In this document: piece by piece, positions 23,420 through 32,734 of the stretch | Position numbering within the stretch: the first letter of the stretch is position 1 | How the letters are laid out: each line of letters begins with the position of its first letter | Assembly: GCA_029262635.1 (NCBI GenBank) | Contig: JAJCZA010000024.1 | Span: 1 to 64,000, forward strand | Reading direction: 5' to 3' | Origin: Vampirovibrionales bacterium | GTDB lineage: Bacteria; Cyanobacteriota; Vampirovibrionia; Vampirovibrionales; Vampirovibrionaceae | Length of the DNA stretch: 64,000 nucleotides | The notes under the pieces: generated by a model | Database searches by the model: none | Told to the model about the DNA's origin: nothing | Seen by the model: the letters and a program-made list of their open reading frames with translations, nothing else | Made by a program: the position numbers and the translations under genes

Positions 23420-23704
23420 ATGAATATGAAACTCGGTTTGCTTTTCTCTTTGGTTACCCTCATCGCGCTCTGTTCTGCAATCAATGCCTGGGCTGTCGAT
23501 TCCGTTGAACGGTTGGAAGTCCATGACGTGACCTGTGTAAAAGCCCGAAAGCGATTCCATGAAGAGGCTCGTCGGCAATGCATCACCGAGGGAAACCAAC
23601 TGCAAAGCTCTATCCCAAAAGAATGCGAAGCCGTTAAAGACCCTTACACCGGATTGGACCGTGTGGTTCAGCATGGTGAGGTGAAGTGCACCATTCGAAA
23701 TTAG
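23420..23704 (+). CDS. Small exported protein with four cysteines
   Basis: The 94-aa protein has a clear signal peptide (LGLLFSLVTLIALCSAINAWA, cleavage near residue 25). The mature part has four cysteines (VTCVKARK, RRQCITEG, PKECEAVK, VKCTIRN) that could form two disulfides. It is otherwise polar and unlike any family I recognise. It is convergent with the dipeptide epimerase gene, and the two overlap by four bases at their stops. Confidence 0.65.
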   Translation: MNMKLGLLFSLVTLIALCSAINAWAVDSVERLEVHDVTCVKARKRFHEEARRQCITEGNQLQSSIPKECEAVKDPYTGLDRVVQHGEVKCTIRN

Positions 23705-24759
23705 TGCGGGTTAAAACGAGAAATCACCCCAATGCCCGGCCGATCGGGAAGGGTGATCTCACTGCCTTTGAATAGAAGCCCTTCGTAAGGGTCGTTCGCA
23801 ATGAGCAGGCAGGCGTCGAGATCCGCATAATCAACCAACGGCGCAAGATGAGCAAAAGCCGTTACCGAAATAGAGGTTTCAGCAAACCCGCCTAGCATGA
23901 CTTTGAGGCCATGCTCCCGAGCCGCATAAATCATTCGTTTTGCCTCAGCGAGCCCGCCGGTTTTAGTATGCTTCAGGTTGATGGCGTGAAACAGATCGGC
24001 ACATCGAGGAACATCTTTCAGGGTATGACAGTTCTCATCCGCCATAATGGGGACGGCTCCCTCGCTTTTCAGACGAATATAATCCGAATCGGGCGAAGCC
24101 AGCTGAAGAGGGGCTTCAATAAACTCGATGCCCAATTCATAGAGCTTATCGCTTATAGAAAGCGCTTCATCAAGAGTCCATCCCGCGTTGGCATCCACTC
24201 GGAGCGTTGCTTTTGGGGCCATGGCTCGAATAAGCCGAAGAATTTCCAAATCGTCAGGACCGCCAAGTTTGATTTTCAGAACATCATAACCTCGCTCCAG
24301 AGCGATTTTTGTTTTATGTCGTACGGTTTCCGTATCAGCAATGCCAATGGTGTAAGAGGTTTTAGGAAGAGGCGTAGGCTCAAGCCTCCAGAAAGTATAA
24401 AGGGGCTGTTGTCGAATTTTCCCTACCAAATCATGAAAAGCGATTTCCAGCCCGGCTTTGGCGGCCATGTTTTCTGGGTATTGGGCCAGGCGTTGTTCGA
24501 GTTCCGGCAAATCCAGCGGATTGAGGCCTTCGAGTGCTTGCTCTTGAACTAATCGATCATAAAAGGCCATTACCGTTTGGTACGTTTCACCATAGAACGA
24601 AGACGGAACAGCCTCACCAAGGGCAAGTAAGGTTTCTCCCCGGTGCAGGTAGGTGAGTTCAACCCGAACCGTCCGGGCGACTGTTTTGATGCTTCTCGAA
24701 ATACCAAAGGGAAACTCCATGGGAAGTTCCATAAGGTGCCATGAAAATTGAAAAGTCAT
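23701..24759 (-). CDS. Dipeptide epimerase (enolase superfamily, L-Ala-D/L-Glu epimerase type)
   Basis: The protein has the muconate-lactonizing-like barrel. The catalytic Lys pair is in YDVLKIKLGG near residue 162, metal ligands are in LRVDANAGWTLDEA (Asp near 190), FIEAPL (Glu) and IMADENC (Asp), and the second Lys is in NLKHTKTGGLAEA. The DxD/E pattern near the C-terminal end (ADLDACLL) is that of dipeptide epimerases, used to recycle murein peptides. It is the last gene of the leftward run that starts with the acyl-CoA dehydrogenase fusion, 17 bases after the preceding stop. The exact dipeptide specificity is not provable by eye. Confidence 0.88.
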   Translation of the reverse strand: MTFQFSWHLMELPMEFPFGISRSIKTVARTVRVELTYLHRGETLLALGEAVPSSFYGETYQTVMAFYDRLVQEQALEGLNPLDLPELEQRLAQYPENMAAKAGLEIAFHDLVGKIRQQPLYTFWRLEPTPLPKTSYTIGIADTETVRHKTKIALERGYDVLKIKLGGPDDLEILRLIRAMAPKATLRVDANAGWTLDEALSISDKLYELGIEFIEAPLQLASPDSDYIRLKSEGAVPIMADENCHTLKDVPRCADLFHAINLKHTKTGGLAEAKRMIYAAREHGLKVMLGGFAETSISVTAFAHLAPLVDYADLDACLLIANDPYEGLLFKGSEITLPDRPGIGVISRFNPH

Positions 24760-27446: not shown

Positions 27447-28628
27447 TTAGTTCAAAACTTTCGGGTTTTCAAGAATCATGGCCACGCCTTGCCCCCCACC
27501 AATACACATGGTCGCCAAGGCGTAACGTTTATTTAACTGCTGTAAAAGCCGGGCCGCCTTACCGGTTATTCTTGCACCGGACGCGCCAAGGGGGTGTCCC
27601 AAAGCAAGTGCTCCGCCATGGATGTTCAGTTTATCGATGGGGATCGTCATGTCCTGCCGCTCAAATTCCTGAAGCACGGACAGGCATTGGGCGGCAAAGG
27701 CTTCATTCAATTCAATGATATCCATGTCTGCCATGGTAAGACCCGCTCGGGCTAAGGCTTTTTTACTGGCTTCCACCGGGCCAATGCCCATAATCTCAGG
27801 CTCACAACCAGACGAGGCGAACGCCTTCAGGATAGCGATCGGAGACAGTCCACGGGTGTCAGCGTATTCTTGTGAGGTGAGCATCACCGCGGATGCACCA
27901 TCAGTATGGGGCGACGACGTTCCAGCGGTTACGCTGCCGTCTTGCTTGAACACGGTTTTCAGCCCCGCCAGCTTTCCCAGATTCGTATCTTTTCGAACGG
28001 CATCATCGAAGGTCAGTCCATTAATGGGAATAATCTCACTCTCAAAGTCATTTTCATCCTGCGCTTTGGCCGCTTTTTGATGAGAAATCATCGCAAATTC
28101 CTCTTGAGCCAACCGAGAAATTTGGTATCGCTCCGCTAAATTCTCGGCGGTAATACCCATATTGAGGAAGCCCTTGGCGTGACCGCCGTAAATTTTCGGG
28201 TTCAGCATCGGATTCCACCCGGCCAGCGGAATGCGGCTAATGGATTGCACGCCAGTGCAGATCATGACATCAGCTTCCCCCGCTAATATCGTGTTTTTGG
28301 CATCGGCGATGACATGCATGGACGAGCCACAAAAACGGTCCACGGTGACACCGCCCACAGTGTTGGGCAGGCCGGATTCCGGGTGAAGGACCACCAGACG
28401 GGCCATATTCAACCCCTGTTCAGCTTCCTGATGAACACAACCGGTGAGAAGGGTTTCCACATCGCTAGGCGATATGCTTGTCCGGCGAAGGAGTTCGCTT
28501 ACTAACACAGCCAGCATATCATCGGGCAGAACCTCGGCGAGTTGCCCCTGCTTATTGCGCCCCGAGTTGGGTTCCACGGCTCGCGCAAAAGGGGTGCGGA
28601 CGTATTCGACAATAACAGCTTGTTTCAT
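27447..28628 (-). CDS. fadA: Acetyl-CoA acyltransferase (thiolase)
   Basis: The thiolase cleaves 3-ketoacyl-CoA, the last step of each beta-oxidation round. It has the active-site Cys in VDRFCGSSMHVI near residue 94, the NEAFAAQ motif, the His in GGALALGHPLGASGAR and the second Cys in MCIGGGQG near the end. The 393-aa length is standard. Its ATG overlaps the stop of the upstream fusion gene (ATGA) and its own stop touches the next start, so the three are tightly coupled in translation. Confidence 0.95.
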   Translation of the reverse strand: MKQAVIVEYVRTPFARAVEPNSGRNKQGQLAEVLPDDMLAVLVSELLRRTSISPSDVETLLTGCVHQEAEQGLNMARLVVLHPESGLPNTVGGVTVDRFCGSSMHVIADAKNTILAGEADVMICTGVQSISRIPLAGWNPMLNPKIYGGHAKGFLNMGITAENLAERYQISRLAQEEFAMISHQKAAKAQDENDFESEIIPINGLTFDDAVRKDTNLGKLAGLKTVFKQDGSVTAGTSSPHTDGASAVMLTSQEYADTRGLSPIAILKAFASSGCEPEIMGIGPVEASKKALARAGLTMADMDIIELNEAFAAQCLSVLQEFERQDMTIPIDKLNIHGGALALGHPLGASGARITGKAARLLQQLNKRYALATMCIGGGQGVAMILENPKVLN

Positions 28629-31600
28629 GACAGTTGCTCCATGGAGTCCACGTGATTATCCGGATGCGAATTCGATTTTTTGAAATCCAGTACATTCTTA
28701 TTGCGTTCTTTTTCCTGTAACTGTTTCCAGTCGGGTTTGCCAACGGCGGTTTTCGGGATTTCCGCGGTGACAAATTCAATGTATTTGGGAAGTTCGAGTC
28801 GGCTCAAATCTTTTGAAATAAATGCTAGCAAGTCTTCCTCATCCATGGCGCCCGCGCTTTTAAGTCGGACAAATGCTTTAGCTGCTTCTCCAGAGCGAGG
28901 ATCTGGAACGCTGATAACAAGACACTCTGCCACAGCCGGGTGTTTAGCGATAGCTTGCTCGATTTGCGTGGGAAACACACTGTAGCCGTTAATAAGAATT
29001 AATCGCTTTTTTCGGTCTACAATGTGCAAGTAGTAATCCTCATCGAGATAGCCAATATCGCCGGTTCTCAGCCAGCCGTCCTGCAGAACCTGACGACTTT
29101 CCTCTTCCTGATTATAATACCCTTTCATGACTTGGGGGCCTTGGATGCAAATTTCACCGGTTTCACCCAGCTTCAGGGTTTGATTTGGGTTATCCGGGTT
29201 TGTGATTTTAATCCGGGTTTGAGGCAGGGGTAAGCCGACGGACTCGGGCTTATTTAATCCATAAGGCGGATTACTGGTTGCCACGGGAGCGGTTTCGGTC
29301 AGACCGTAACCCTGTTTAATAAGACCGGAACGTCCACTAGTGGATTCAAAGTCATCTACCAACGAATGAGGCAAAGCGGCGCCACCAGAAATGACCGTTT
29401 CTAGTCTTGATAAATCATAATGATCTGATTTTGGGTTCTCGCAGAGGGCTTGTAACAGCCGGGGTACGGCCGGAAATAGGGTGGGTTTTTTATCCTGAAA
29501 AGTTTTTAGGGTCTCTTTCATGTTGCGCGGATCGGGCAGAATTAACAACTCGCTTCCTATTTTCAGACAAGTGAGCATGGCGACAGTCATTCCAAAAATA
29601 TGAAAATAAGGAATTGAGGCTAAAACCCGTTCTTTTCCCGGTTCTAACAGGGCGCTGGAAGCCGGTTTGTTGCCTGAAGCTTTGAAATATTCTTCAATTT
29701 GGGTCACATTGGCCACTAGATTACGATGGGTAAGCATAGCCCCTTTAGGGCTACCGGTTGTACCACCGGTGTATTGCAATACGGCTAGATCGTCTGGTGA
29801 CAGGGTGACGGGTTCTAATGATTGATTCGTGTTGATTAGGTCTTTATACGAAATCACCGGAGATTTGAGGGGGTTGTCTCCAGTGGCTAGCTTTTCCTCT
29901 TCCGTTGGATGGGCAATCTGCGAATACTTGAAAATTCGGTAAGCGTGGGCTTTAAAGAAGGGCAGGCTGTCTTCCATGCGGCATTTAATGACATGGTCGA
30001 GGAGCCCTTCTTTCTGGAGTTGAACCGACTTTTCGTACATCTCCTTCAAGTCCATGGTCACCATAAAGCGAATGTTACTATCCTTTACCTGTACTTGCAG
30101 TTCACTTTTTGTATGCATGGGACAACAGTTCACCACCACGGCACCGGCTTTTAGAGCGGCAAAAAACATGATGGGATAATAGGGTGTATTGGGCATGTAA
30201 AGTCCGACCCGAGTGCCTTGGCTCACGCCAGCCGCCTGTAGACCGGCAGCGGCTTGATGGATTTGACGATTTATTTCCTCATAGGTGTATTTTTTACCCA
30301 TGAAGTCAATGCAGGTTTTCGATGCGTAGCGTTCAAAGGCTTCGTCCATCAAGCGAGTCAAATCCACGTTTGGGATATCAACGTTCCACCGGGTGCCTAA
30401 AGGATAATTTTTTTTTAGGCTATTTCCGTCGGCCAGGGCTAAGTTTTTGTCTTCAGCGGGCTTAGAGCGATCGAGAGAGAGATCAAAATCATCGACCTCA
30501 ACCACTTGGTGGCGAAGGGCTTCGGTAGCTTTCAAATGTTGAGCGTCGCTGCCGCTAATCAGACCTTTTTCAAGGGCTTCGGCAACAAGGGCCTCGGATT
30601 GTTTAGCGTTGAGCTGACCGTTCCGTTTAGCGTTTCGTAGTTTGAGCTCAATGGGTTCGGCCTGAACAATGGCGGTAAAGCATCGTTCCAAAAGAGTCAG
30701 GGCTTCGCTTTCTTTATCGGGTAAGTAGATGCCTTCGGTGAGGTCATCTCGAACCCTTCCGGGATTGTACAAGGTTTGAGCAACCTTACGCTCTAGCCGA
30801 TGAGAGGGGGGGGTAAACGGACGTCCTTTTGGGAAAACAATCCAGCGAAGCCCGACAGCCATAACCGGAAGGGGGAAGTTATTCAGCAGGCGATCTATGC
30901 TTTCTTCCGTCTGGTAAAGCAGTTGTTCACACGCCCACTCCATCAAGGGTTCATCTTCTTTCAGGCATCCGTTGGTGGAAAAGTGCCGGAGGGTGCAAGA
31001 TGTTAAATACAGGTAGCTCATGGCGTCGCCAAGTAGGGCGGAAATCCGTTCTTTTCGCTTAACAGCGGAACCCAAAAGCATTAGGATCATATCCGCTAGT
31101 GTGGCATACGCGGCGCACAGCCGATTCACGTGGCGGTAATATTTTTTCAGTTTTTTGGATTGTCTCGCACTTTCAGGAAGAGGGCTAAAGTGACCACTAA
31201 AGAGCCCATAAACAAAACTATTAACCGTGTTGCTAACGCTCAAACGGACGTGTTGGGCCATCAGGTCGCTAAAATCTTTCAACGCCTTTTTTTCGTCGTC
31301 TTGCAAGGCGGCTTCCATTTCTTTCAGGATGTAGGGATGAGAACGTACGGAGGCTTGCCCAAAGATAATTAGGTTTCGAGTTAGAATATTAGCCCCTTCT
31401 ACGGTGATGCCAATGGGCATGCCTTGATAGAGCGGGCCAATGAGGTTGCCCGGACCTTCGCAGATGGCTTTGCCGCCAAGGATGTCCATGCCATCATTCA
31501 CGACCTGACGACCGGATTCGGTGAGATGATACTTAAGGATGGCGGAAATAATGGTAGGATGCTCACCTCGATCTAGCATTTGCAAGGTCGCCAAGCGAGA

Positions 31601-32734
31601 AGCGTTCATCATGTAGGTCGTTCCAGCGATTCTGGCGAGAAACTCCTCGATGCCTTCAAATTTTCCAATGGGAAGCTTAAACTGTTTGCGAACCCGACTA
31701 TAGGCTCCGCTAACCCGACTAATCAGTTTGGCCGAACCCACAGATAGGGCAGGTAGAGAAACGGATCGTCCGACAGAGAGACATTCCATGAGCATTCTCC
31801 ACCCTTGACCGGCGTAGTCTTTACCACCAATAATATTTTCAATAGGAATCCACACGTCTTTCCCCTTAGTGGGCCCATTATGGAACGGAATGTTCATAGG
31901 GTTGTGACGTCGTCCAATAGTAACACCCGGTTGATCTGTTGGGATCAGGGCCAGTGTAATGCCATAATCATTTTTACTCGAATTTCCCAACAGGCCGTTG
32001 GGATCCTGAAGTTTAAAGGCGAGACCCAACAAAGTGGTGATAGGGCTAAGGGTGATGTAGCGTTTTTCCCAGCTTAGCAGGATGCCCAGTTGGCCATCCC
32101 GTTCGCAAACAACGCCGTGAGAAGTCATACTAGAGGCATCGGAACCGGCATTGGGTTCCGTCAAGGCGAATGAGGGAATTTCTTCGCCTTTAGCCAGACG
32201 AGGTAGGTAATAATCTTTTTGTTGTTGGGTGCCGTAGCGGGTTAGAAGTTCTGCTGGGCCAAGAGAATTGGGTACCATGGCGGTAACACAGGCCGTGACA
32301 CTTCGGCTGGCCAATTTTTGAATAACTTCTGAATGGGCGTGGGCAGAAAAGCCGAGGCCCTCGTATTTTTCCGGAATGATCATTCCGAAAAAGCCTTTTT
32401 CTTTCATAAACCGCCAGACTTCGACCGGCAGATCCTTGTCTTCGCTTCTAATTTTCCAGTCATCTAATAAAGCGCACAGCTCGTTGGTCGGACCATCGAG
32501 AAAAGCTTTTTCGGCTTCAGTTAATTGGGCCAGAGGCAGATCTAGCAAGTTATCCCAGTCGGGCGAGCCCGCTAAAATACTGCCCTCAAATCCGACAGAA
32601 CCCGACGAGAGGGCTTCCTTTTCCGTGTCGGATATTTTTACTTTTCGAGTGTCTTGAAACGCCTGATTTCTCAGGGGAAAGAGTAGGGTGTTAACCAAGG
32701 TTTTGTAGAACAGGTGGATCATCTGACTATACAT
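28625..32734 (-). CDS. FadE-type acyl-CoA dehydrogenase fused to a long-chain acyl-CoA ligase (FadD type)
   Basis: One unbroken 1369-aa frame holds two enzymes. Residues 1-760 are a FadE-like acyl-CoA dehydrogenase: hydrophobic N-terminus, GFFGMIIPEKYEGLGF, FALTEPNAGSD, the base Glu in GITVEGANILTRN near residue 446, and the FadE-specific C-terminal extension (DUF1974 type). After a polar linker, residues 776-1369 are an ANL-family ligase: YTGGTTGSPKGAML near 986, YGLTETAPV, DGWLRTGDIGY, VDRKKRLILINGY and the catalytic Lys in VGKPDWKQL near 1332. Activation of the fatty acid and the first oxidation are thus on one chain. AGGAAG precedes the ATG by eight bases. I know of no such fusion; no search was possible. 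Confidence 0.93.
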   Translation of the reverse strand: MYSQMIHLFYKTLVNTLLFPLRNQAFQDTRKVKISDTEKEALSSGSVGFEGSILAGSPDWDNLLDLPLAQLTEAEKAFLDGPTNELCALLDDWKIRSEDKDLPVEVWRFMKEKGFFGMIIPEKYEGLGFSAHAHSEVIQKLASRSVTACVTAMVPNSLGPAELLTRYGTQQQKDYYLPRLAKGEEIPSFALTEPNAGSDASSMTSHGVVCERDGQLGILLSWEKRYITLSPITTLLGLAFKLQDPNGLLGNSSKNDYGITLALIPTDQPGVTIGRRHNPMNIPFHNGPTKGKDVWIPIENIIGGKDYAGQGWRMLMECLSVGRSVSLPALSVGSAKLISRVSGAYSRVRKQFKLPIGKFEGIEEFLARIAGTTYMMNASRLATLQMLDRGEHPTIISAILKYHLTESGRQVVNDGMDILGGKAICEGPGNLIGPLYQGMPIGITVEGANILTRNLIIFGQASVRSHPYILKEMEAALQDDEKKALKDFSDLMAQHVRLSVSNTVNSFVYGLFSGHFSPLPESARQSKKLKKYYRHVNRLCAAYATLADMILMLLGSAVKRKERISALLGDAMSYLYLTSCTLRHFSTNGCLKEDEPLMEWACEQLLYQTEESIDRLLNNFPLPVMAVGLRWIVFPKGRPFTPPSHRLERKVAQTLYNPGRVRDDLTEGIYLPDKESEALTLLERCFTAIVQAEPIELKLRNAKRNGQLNAKQSEALVAEALEKGLISGSDAQHLKATEALRHQVVEVDDFDLSLDRSKPAEDKNLALADGNSLKKNYPLGTRWNVDIPNVDLTRLMDEAFERYASKTCIDFMGKKYTYEEINRQIHQAAAGLQAAGVSQGTRVGLYMPNTPYYPIMFFAALKAGAVVVNCCPMHTKSELQVQVKDSNIRFMVTMDLKEMYEKSVQLQKEGLLDHVIKCRMEDSLPFFKAHAYRIFKYSQIAHPTEEEKLATGDNPLKSPVISYKDLINTNQSLEPVTLSPDDLAVLQYTGGTTGSPKGAMLTHRNLVANVTQIEEYFKASGNKPASSALLEPGKERVLASIPYFHIFGMTVAMLTCLKIGSELLILPDPRNMKETLKTFQDKKPTLFPAVPRLLQALCENPKSDHYDLSRLETVISGGAALPHSLVDDFESTSGRSGLIKQGYGLTETAPVATSNPPYGLNKPESVGLPLPQTRIKITNPDNPNQTLKLGETGEICIQGPQVMKGYYNQEEESRQVLQDGWLRTGDIGYLDEDYYLHIVDRKKRLILINGYSVFPTQIEQAIAKHPAVAECLVISVPDPRSGEAAKAFVRLKSAGAMDEEDLLAFISKDLSRLELPKYIEFVTAEIPKTAVGKPDWKQLQEKERNKNVLDFKKSNSHPDNHVDSMEQLS

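Follow-up and report, generated by a model that had tools for sequence, protein, structure and literature searches.

In operons of the Bacillus type, FadN-FadA-FadE, the thiolase gene neighbours FadN. For E. coli, a 2022 review lists several open questions: whether FadBA has FadD and FadE as partners, the site of FadE in the cell and the role of its C-terminal domain (PMC9329746). In humans, ACAD10 and ACAD11 are described as acyl-CoA dehydrogenases with a second enzyme attached, one that supplies beta-oxidation (PMC11342911). Beta-oxidation genes receive only a brief mention in the genome paper on V. chlorellavorus (PMC4451040), and no description of a FadE-FadD fusion was found in the literature searched.

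Here we describe such a fusion in a 2.99 Mb genome that belongs to genus g1 of the Vampirovibrionaceae. The window, i.e. the whole stretch of 64,000 nucleotides that was analysed, was scanned for open frames. On the minus strand, 28625-32734 forms a single FadE-FadD frame of 1369 codons from ATG to stop; the plus strand across the same positions, for which the original prediction gave no strand, is riddled with stops. Its central claim, that one unbroken frame joins a full FadE-type dehydrogenase to a full FadD-type ligase, has held up: this is a true fusion, and it heads a fad operon (Table 1). Because two full conserved enzymes recur at ~65% identity in sister genomes, sequence comparison excludes chance as the source of the 1369-aa frame. 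The chain has an expected mass of ~153 kDa and its halves of ~85 and ~65 kDa.

Table 1. Features of the FadE-FadD locus (coordinates within the window).
Feature	Coordinates	Strand	Basis or remark
FadE-FadD fusion gene, 1369 aa	28625..32734	-	Open frame; Pfam and NCBIfam domains; same frame in 3 sister genomes
FadE half, residues 1-755	30470..32734	-	ACAD domains and ACDH_C; Glu446; no N-terminal transmembrane helices predicted
Joint, residues 752-776	30407..30481	-	FadE tail into the ligase's own N-terminus; predicted disordered
FadD-type acyl-CoA ligase half, residues about 763/777-1369	28628..30406	-	Domains; catalytic Lys1333
ATGA overlap, fusion stop/thiolase start	28625..28628	-	Same overlap between separate ligase and thiolase genes in L220
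FadA-type thiolase, 393 aa	27447..28628	-	Domains; catalytic motifs
FadN-type 3-hydroxyacyl-CoA dehydrogenase/enoyl-CoA hydratase, 889 aa	24777..27446	-	HCDH first, hydratase second
MR/MLE-family (dipeptide-epimerase-like) gene	23701..24759	-	17 nt downstream of FadN

The FadE half is a strong match to the NCBIfam FadE subfamily PRK09463 (NF007000), with 1018.2 bits against a cut-off of 600 and residues 33-752 aligned to model positions 5-722 of 726. Its Pfam matches are Acyl-CoA_dh_N (91-184), _M (188-283), _1 (309-456) and ACDH_C (PF09317, 463-750, 324.6 bits). The catalytic Glu446 (GITVEGANILTR; GITVEGAN motif) is present and is invariant across all complete copies of the fusion. Members of the FadE family are stand-alone chains, and here a ligase is attached. 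The first 60 residues reach a maximum hydropathy of 0.84, compared with 2.1-3.3 in four beta/gammaproteobacterial FadEs; on this profile the FadE half is without N-terminal membrane helices. An AlphaFold model of this half has a mean pLDDT of 83.8 and a pTM of 0.86, its top PDB matches are ACAD9 and VLCAD, and the modelled fold resembles these two enzymes.

The ligase half hosts AMP-binding (PF00501, 797-1207, 314.5 bits) and AMP-binding_C (PF13193, 1257-1333, 66.2 bits) domains, together with the motifs YTGGTTGSPKG (988-998) and DGWLRTGD and the catalytic Lys1333 (PKTAVGK). The nucleotide motif and the lysine are thus present, as had been predicted, although the name given to the former, ‘ATP-grip’, is a misnomer for what is the nucleotide motif of adenylate-forming enzymes. 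No listed NCBIfam match scores high enough for any named FadD equivalog or subfamily; the best is PRK05605 with 443.6 bits against a cut-off of 766. From these matches we classify this half as clearly a long-chain-type acyl-CoA ligase, FadD-like by family but not itself a named FadD equivalog. Its structure model is moderate (AlphaFold, mean pLDDT 62.6). Elsewhere in the class, genomes of family f6 have many AMP-binding matches within frames of ~1160-1180 aa. These are probably Aas-type acyltransferase-ligase fusions, and ligase fusions would therefore be common in the class.

Both junctions downstream of the fusion are as first claimed, with a thiolase after a 4-base overlap and an HCDH/ECH protein after a zero-base gap. 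The thiolase has its Cys, His and Cys residues. In the FadN-type protein the HCDH domain precedes the hydratase in the Pfam matches, and the catalytic residues are in place: the HCDH His and the two ECH Glu motifs (HFFNP, GGGCE, GLVESGVG). This protein scores 460.9 bits with the curated Staph_FadB model, below its cut-off of 999. The MR/MLE gene has no match at the operon loci of the sister genus and is probably outside the system.

The pathway from free fatty acid to acetyl-CoA was said to be contained in three polypeptides. It is indeed coded in this way, with ETF and ETF-QO required in addition for electron transfer. The genome has an ETF gene pair and one ETF-QO-like match, which is borderline (24.8 bits, cut-off 24). 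It also codes for two further fatty-acyl-CoA-ligase-like proteins and for several acyl-CoA dehydrogenases that are short, so other routes may exist alongside the fusion. A further dehydrogenase, of 816 aa, lies on the minus strand of contig C28 (L224:316-2766) and has a gap of ~185 residues between its middle and C-terminal domain matches, possibly a large insertion.

We have surveyed ten genomes from six genera of the Vampirovibrionaceae for the fusion. It is found in two of these genera, namely in our genome (g1) and in all five genomes of g5; genera g2, g3, g4 and g6 have neither the fusion nor a FadE of its type. Three of the g5 copies are complete frames of 1386-1421 aa. The copy in G008 is broken solely by a contig end, in that residues 1-498 close C25 and C79 opens with residue 490 and those after it; that in G009 runs off a contig. 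The genome G496, which holds a Vampirovibrio sp. MAG (L039), matches G008 in its contigs and coordinates. Thiolase and FadN trail the fusion in the same order at each of the three complete g5 loci, and the thiolase and the start of FadN are also present in G008. A frame split near codon 770 in other genomes had been named as the result that would count against a fusion. Within the family every copy is fused; the nearest relatives outside the Vampirovibrionaceae, from the Micavibrio order, carry FadE and ligase as separate genes.

Further afield, ACDH_C is found in 10 of 386 genomes sampled from the phylum and is fused in our genome only. Family f4 of the class has stand-alone FadEs of 764-832 aa, and the class members sampled outside the Vampirovibrionaceae show no fusion of this kind. 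Among 398 Pseudomonadota genomes there is no in-frame ligase extension in the best ~150 FadE matches, no FadE-ligase fusion is listed among 142 genomes of the Micavibrio order and 17 genomes of another family, and no record among 72,556 plasmids covers 80% of the fusion query.

The Micavibrio order, by which we mean the order holding the Micavibrio MAG L040/G493, carries the nearest relatives of all four genes (FadE, ligase, thiolase and FadN), unfused and clustered. We take this order to be the Micavibrionales, placed in the Alphaproteobacteria by GTDB; NCBI still places Micavibrio under Bdellovibrionota. The position of FadE in these clusters varies: it is head to head with the ligase-thiolase-FadN operon at ~50 bp in L228, ~2.9 kb upstream on the same strand in L229, and beyond the far side of FadN in L230 and L231. 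At the two closest of these loci the identities are 53-56% for FadE, 51-52% for the ligase, 58-64% for the thiolase and 47-56% for FadN, whereas FadEs of the same class as our genome are just 37-40% identical to the fused one. In FastTree phylogenies built on samples of top hits, the fused clade nests with proteins of the Micavibrio order, both for FadE (support 0.977, then 0.983) and for the ligase (0.932, then 0.966).

The simplest history of these sequences is an apparent lateral sharing of the fad cluster between the Vampirovibrionaceae and the Micavibrio order, after which FadE and FadD were fused in the former. The nesting, together with the absence elsewhere in the family, suggests the direction of transfer. 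Two other origins were considered and rejected. The adjacent fadE-ligase pairs of Nitrosomonadales/Gallionellaceae have a ligase that is only ~25% identical, and the same-class FadEs of family f4 are stand-alone, 37-40% identical and have no related ligase nearby. Some FadEs of the Micavibrio order have a split ACDH_C match, e.g. L229:10024-12600 (minus strand), the first stretch ending near profile position 158, which suggests an insertion in the domain. Both the Vampirovibrionaceae and the Micavibrio order are named for epibiotic predators.

How were the two enzymes joined? Stand-alone FadEs continue beyond the VDDF motif for a median of 16 residues, and ligases of the Micavibrio order begin with a stretch homologous to LALADGNSLKKNYPLG (‘LALADG..YP.G’), which reads LALADGDTINGFYPQG in L228 and ALANGESLPAHYPEG in L229. 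As the FadE ends and ligase starts match those of stand-alone proteins, the two were joined end to end, each at its natural terminus and with hardly any extra residues. The joint (752-776) is 20-26 aa long and shows 19-32% identity between the more distant copies, those of different genera. AlphaFold was run on the two halves separately, and pLDDT falls below 50 at 753-800 in the FadE model and at about 736-785 in the ligase model. We therefore describe the joint as a short, fast-evolving and flexible tether that is predicted to be disordered. Between the two closest complete copies, dN/dS is 0.016/0.474 for the ACAD region, 0.032/0.470 for ACDH_C and 0.035/0.451 for AMP-binding; by this measure both halves are under purifying selection.

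Taken together, we think it probable that the gene encodes a bifunctional beta-oxidation enzyme that arose by end-to-end joining after lateral sharing of a fad cluster with the Micavibrio order. Both activities would be expected from the domains and catalytic residues. The ligase half would convert fatty acid, ATP and CoA to acyl-CoA, the FadE half would oxidize this to trans-2-enoyl-CoA and pass the electrons via ETF to the quinone pool, and FadN and the thiolase of the same operon would complete each turn. This scheme does not require the intermediate to be handed over directly. In evolutionary terms, a fad cluster (FadE, FadD, FadA and FadN) would have been shared with the Micavibrio order by lateral transfer, and FadE joined end to end ahead of FadD in an ancestor of the two Vampirovibrionaceae genera. 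Some 20-26 flexible residues would tether FadE to a ligase expected at the membrane. The benefit, we infer, lies in a fixed 1:1 supply and in the recruitment of a helix-less FadE to the workplace of the ligase, the inner-membrane face.

A serious rival is near-neutral fixation: two adjacent genes from the same pathway became one and their product works, with no gain over the separate enzymes. We regard this as possible but as the less likely account. Both halves have kept their natural ends, the joint is flexible and unconserved, and in L238 the ligase bears a different N-terminal partner, so this type of ligase tolerates fusions. However, the fusion is intact in all genomes of the two genera that have it and no split has been seen.

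Substrate channelling, in which the ligase site passes its new acyl-CoA straight on to the FadE site within one chain at the membrane, seems unlikely to us. The covalent fusion has been retained in two genera under purifying selection, and for E. coli it is acknowledged as open whether FadD associates with FadE (PMC9329746), which both speak for this idea. Yet the FadE half has no predicted membrane helix, and most of its substrate comes from the FadN/thiolase side, with FadE acting for about seven turns per palmitate and FadD for one. The original prediction held that the fusion implies direct hand-over, and that FadE and FadD are normally in different places. Neither statement is supported. 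FadD is at the inner membrane and the location of E. coli FadE is described as unknown (PMC9329746); in our locus the joint is predicted to be disordered and is poorly conserved and fast-evolving, and FadD works once per fatty acid, FadE at every turn. Because palmitate needs one activation but seven dehydrogenations, hand-over is disfavoured as the main gain.

A bolder idea, which we consider quite doubtful, is a physical beta-oxidation assembly at the inner membrane: FadE-FadD would be its core, with FadA and FadN docked onto it, and intermediates would be channelled all the way from free fatty acid to acetyl-CoA. If true, the question of whether FadD and FadE join the trifunctional complex would have found an answer in nature, within a fad cluster common to two lineages named for predatory bacteria. 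It is very unlikely that the product functions as two proteins, with proteolysis in the exposed joint or an internal start freeing the ligase. The predicted disorder of the joint would allow for this, but in four genomes no start codon at the joint is both conserved and accompanied by a ribosome-binding site, and no conserved cleavage motif was seen within the joint. Finally, we give practically no credence to an assembly artefact or a frameshift read as a fusion, which is ruled out by the same frame, free of internal stops, in three other independent assemblies and by the agreement of two more genomes up to their contig ends.

The bifunctional enzyme that we favour unites FadE and FadD in nature, a ‘Rosetta-stone’ hint that both enzymes can work side by side, and offers a single protein for testing co-localisation and channelling. 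It is also a clear case of a catabolic cluster apparently common to the Vampirovibrionaceae and the Micavibrio order, with the fusion on one side only.

How does the locus compare with known systems? The stand-alone FadEs of E. coli and Micavibrio (PRK09463/PF09317 type) share the domain set, catalytic Glu and ACDH_C of our FadE half, which is ~48% identical to E. coli FadE and 54% to that of the Micavibrio MAG. They differ in that the fusion has a whole ligase on the C-terminus, and many beta/gammaproteobacterial FadEs have N-terminal membrane helices that our FadE half is predicted to lack. The FadD-FadA-FadN operons that occur unfused in Pseudomonadota and in the Micavibrio order (L216, L220, L228-L236) have the same types of ligase, thiolase and FadN in the same order, and L220 even has the same ATGA overlap between ligase and thiolase; unlike in the fusion, ligase and dehydrogenase are separate genes. 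The separate dehydrogenase is a PF12806-type ACAD in L216, L217, L218 and L220, and operons of the L216/L220 type have another ACAD after FadN, whereas L228-L231 and L238 have a separate FadE nearby.

L238 holds a different fusion at the same operon position, followed by a thiolase, FadN and the separate FadE. Its frame of 1408 aa (L238:4717-8940, plus strand; genome G1050, Pseudomonadota) has a weak acyltransferase match, an alpha/beta hydrolase and an acyl-CoA ligase of the same type as ours, and is perhaps a lipase plus ligase. This suggests that the N-terminus of this ligase type is a recurrent fusion point.

The FadN-FadA-FadE operons of the Bacillus/Staphylococcus type share the FadN-type HCDH/ECH order and the neighbouring thiolase with our operon, but their dehydrogenase is a different ACAD and is unfused. 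In the human ACAD10 and ACAD11 the partner is a kinase (PMC11342911), and here it is a CoA ligase. Lipopeptide synthetases also combine AMP-binding and ACAD domains in one polypeptide; a gammaproteobacterial example of 2864 aa (L223:635-9229, minus strand) runs through AMP-binding, ACAD, carrier, luciferase-like, condensation and second AMP-binding domains. In these biosynthetic proteins the ligase comes first, with a carrier protein and a condensation domain, and the dehydrogenase is not of the FadE/ACDH_C type. Compared with the FAAL-ACAD lipopeptide starters, our fusion has the ACAD before the ligase and no PP-binding domain. All of the parts are known, and a catabolic FadE-FadD fusion that heads a fad operon has no earlier example among the papers and genomes searched.
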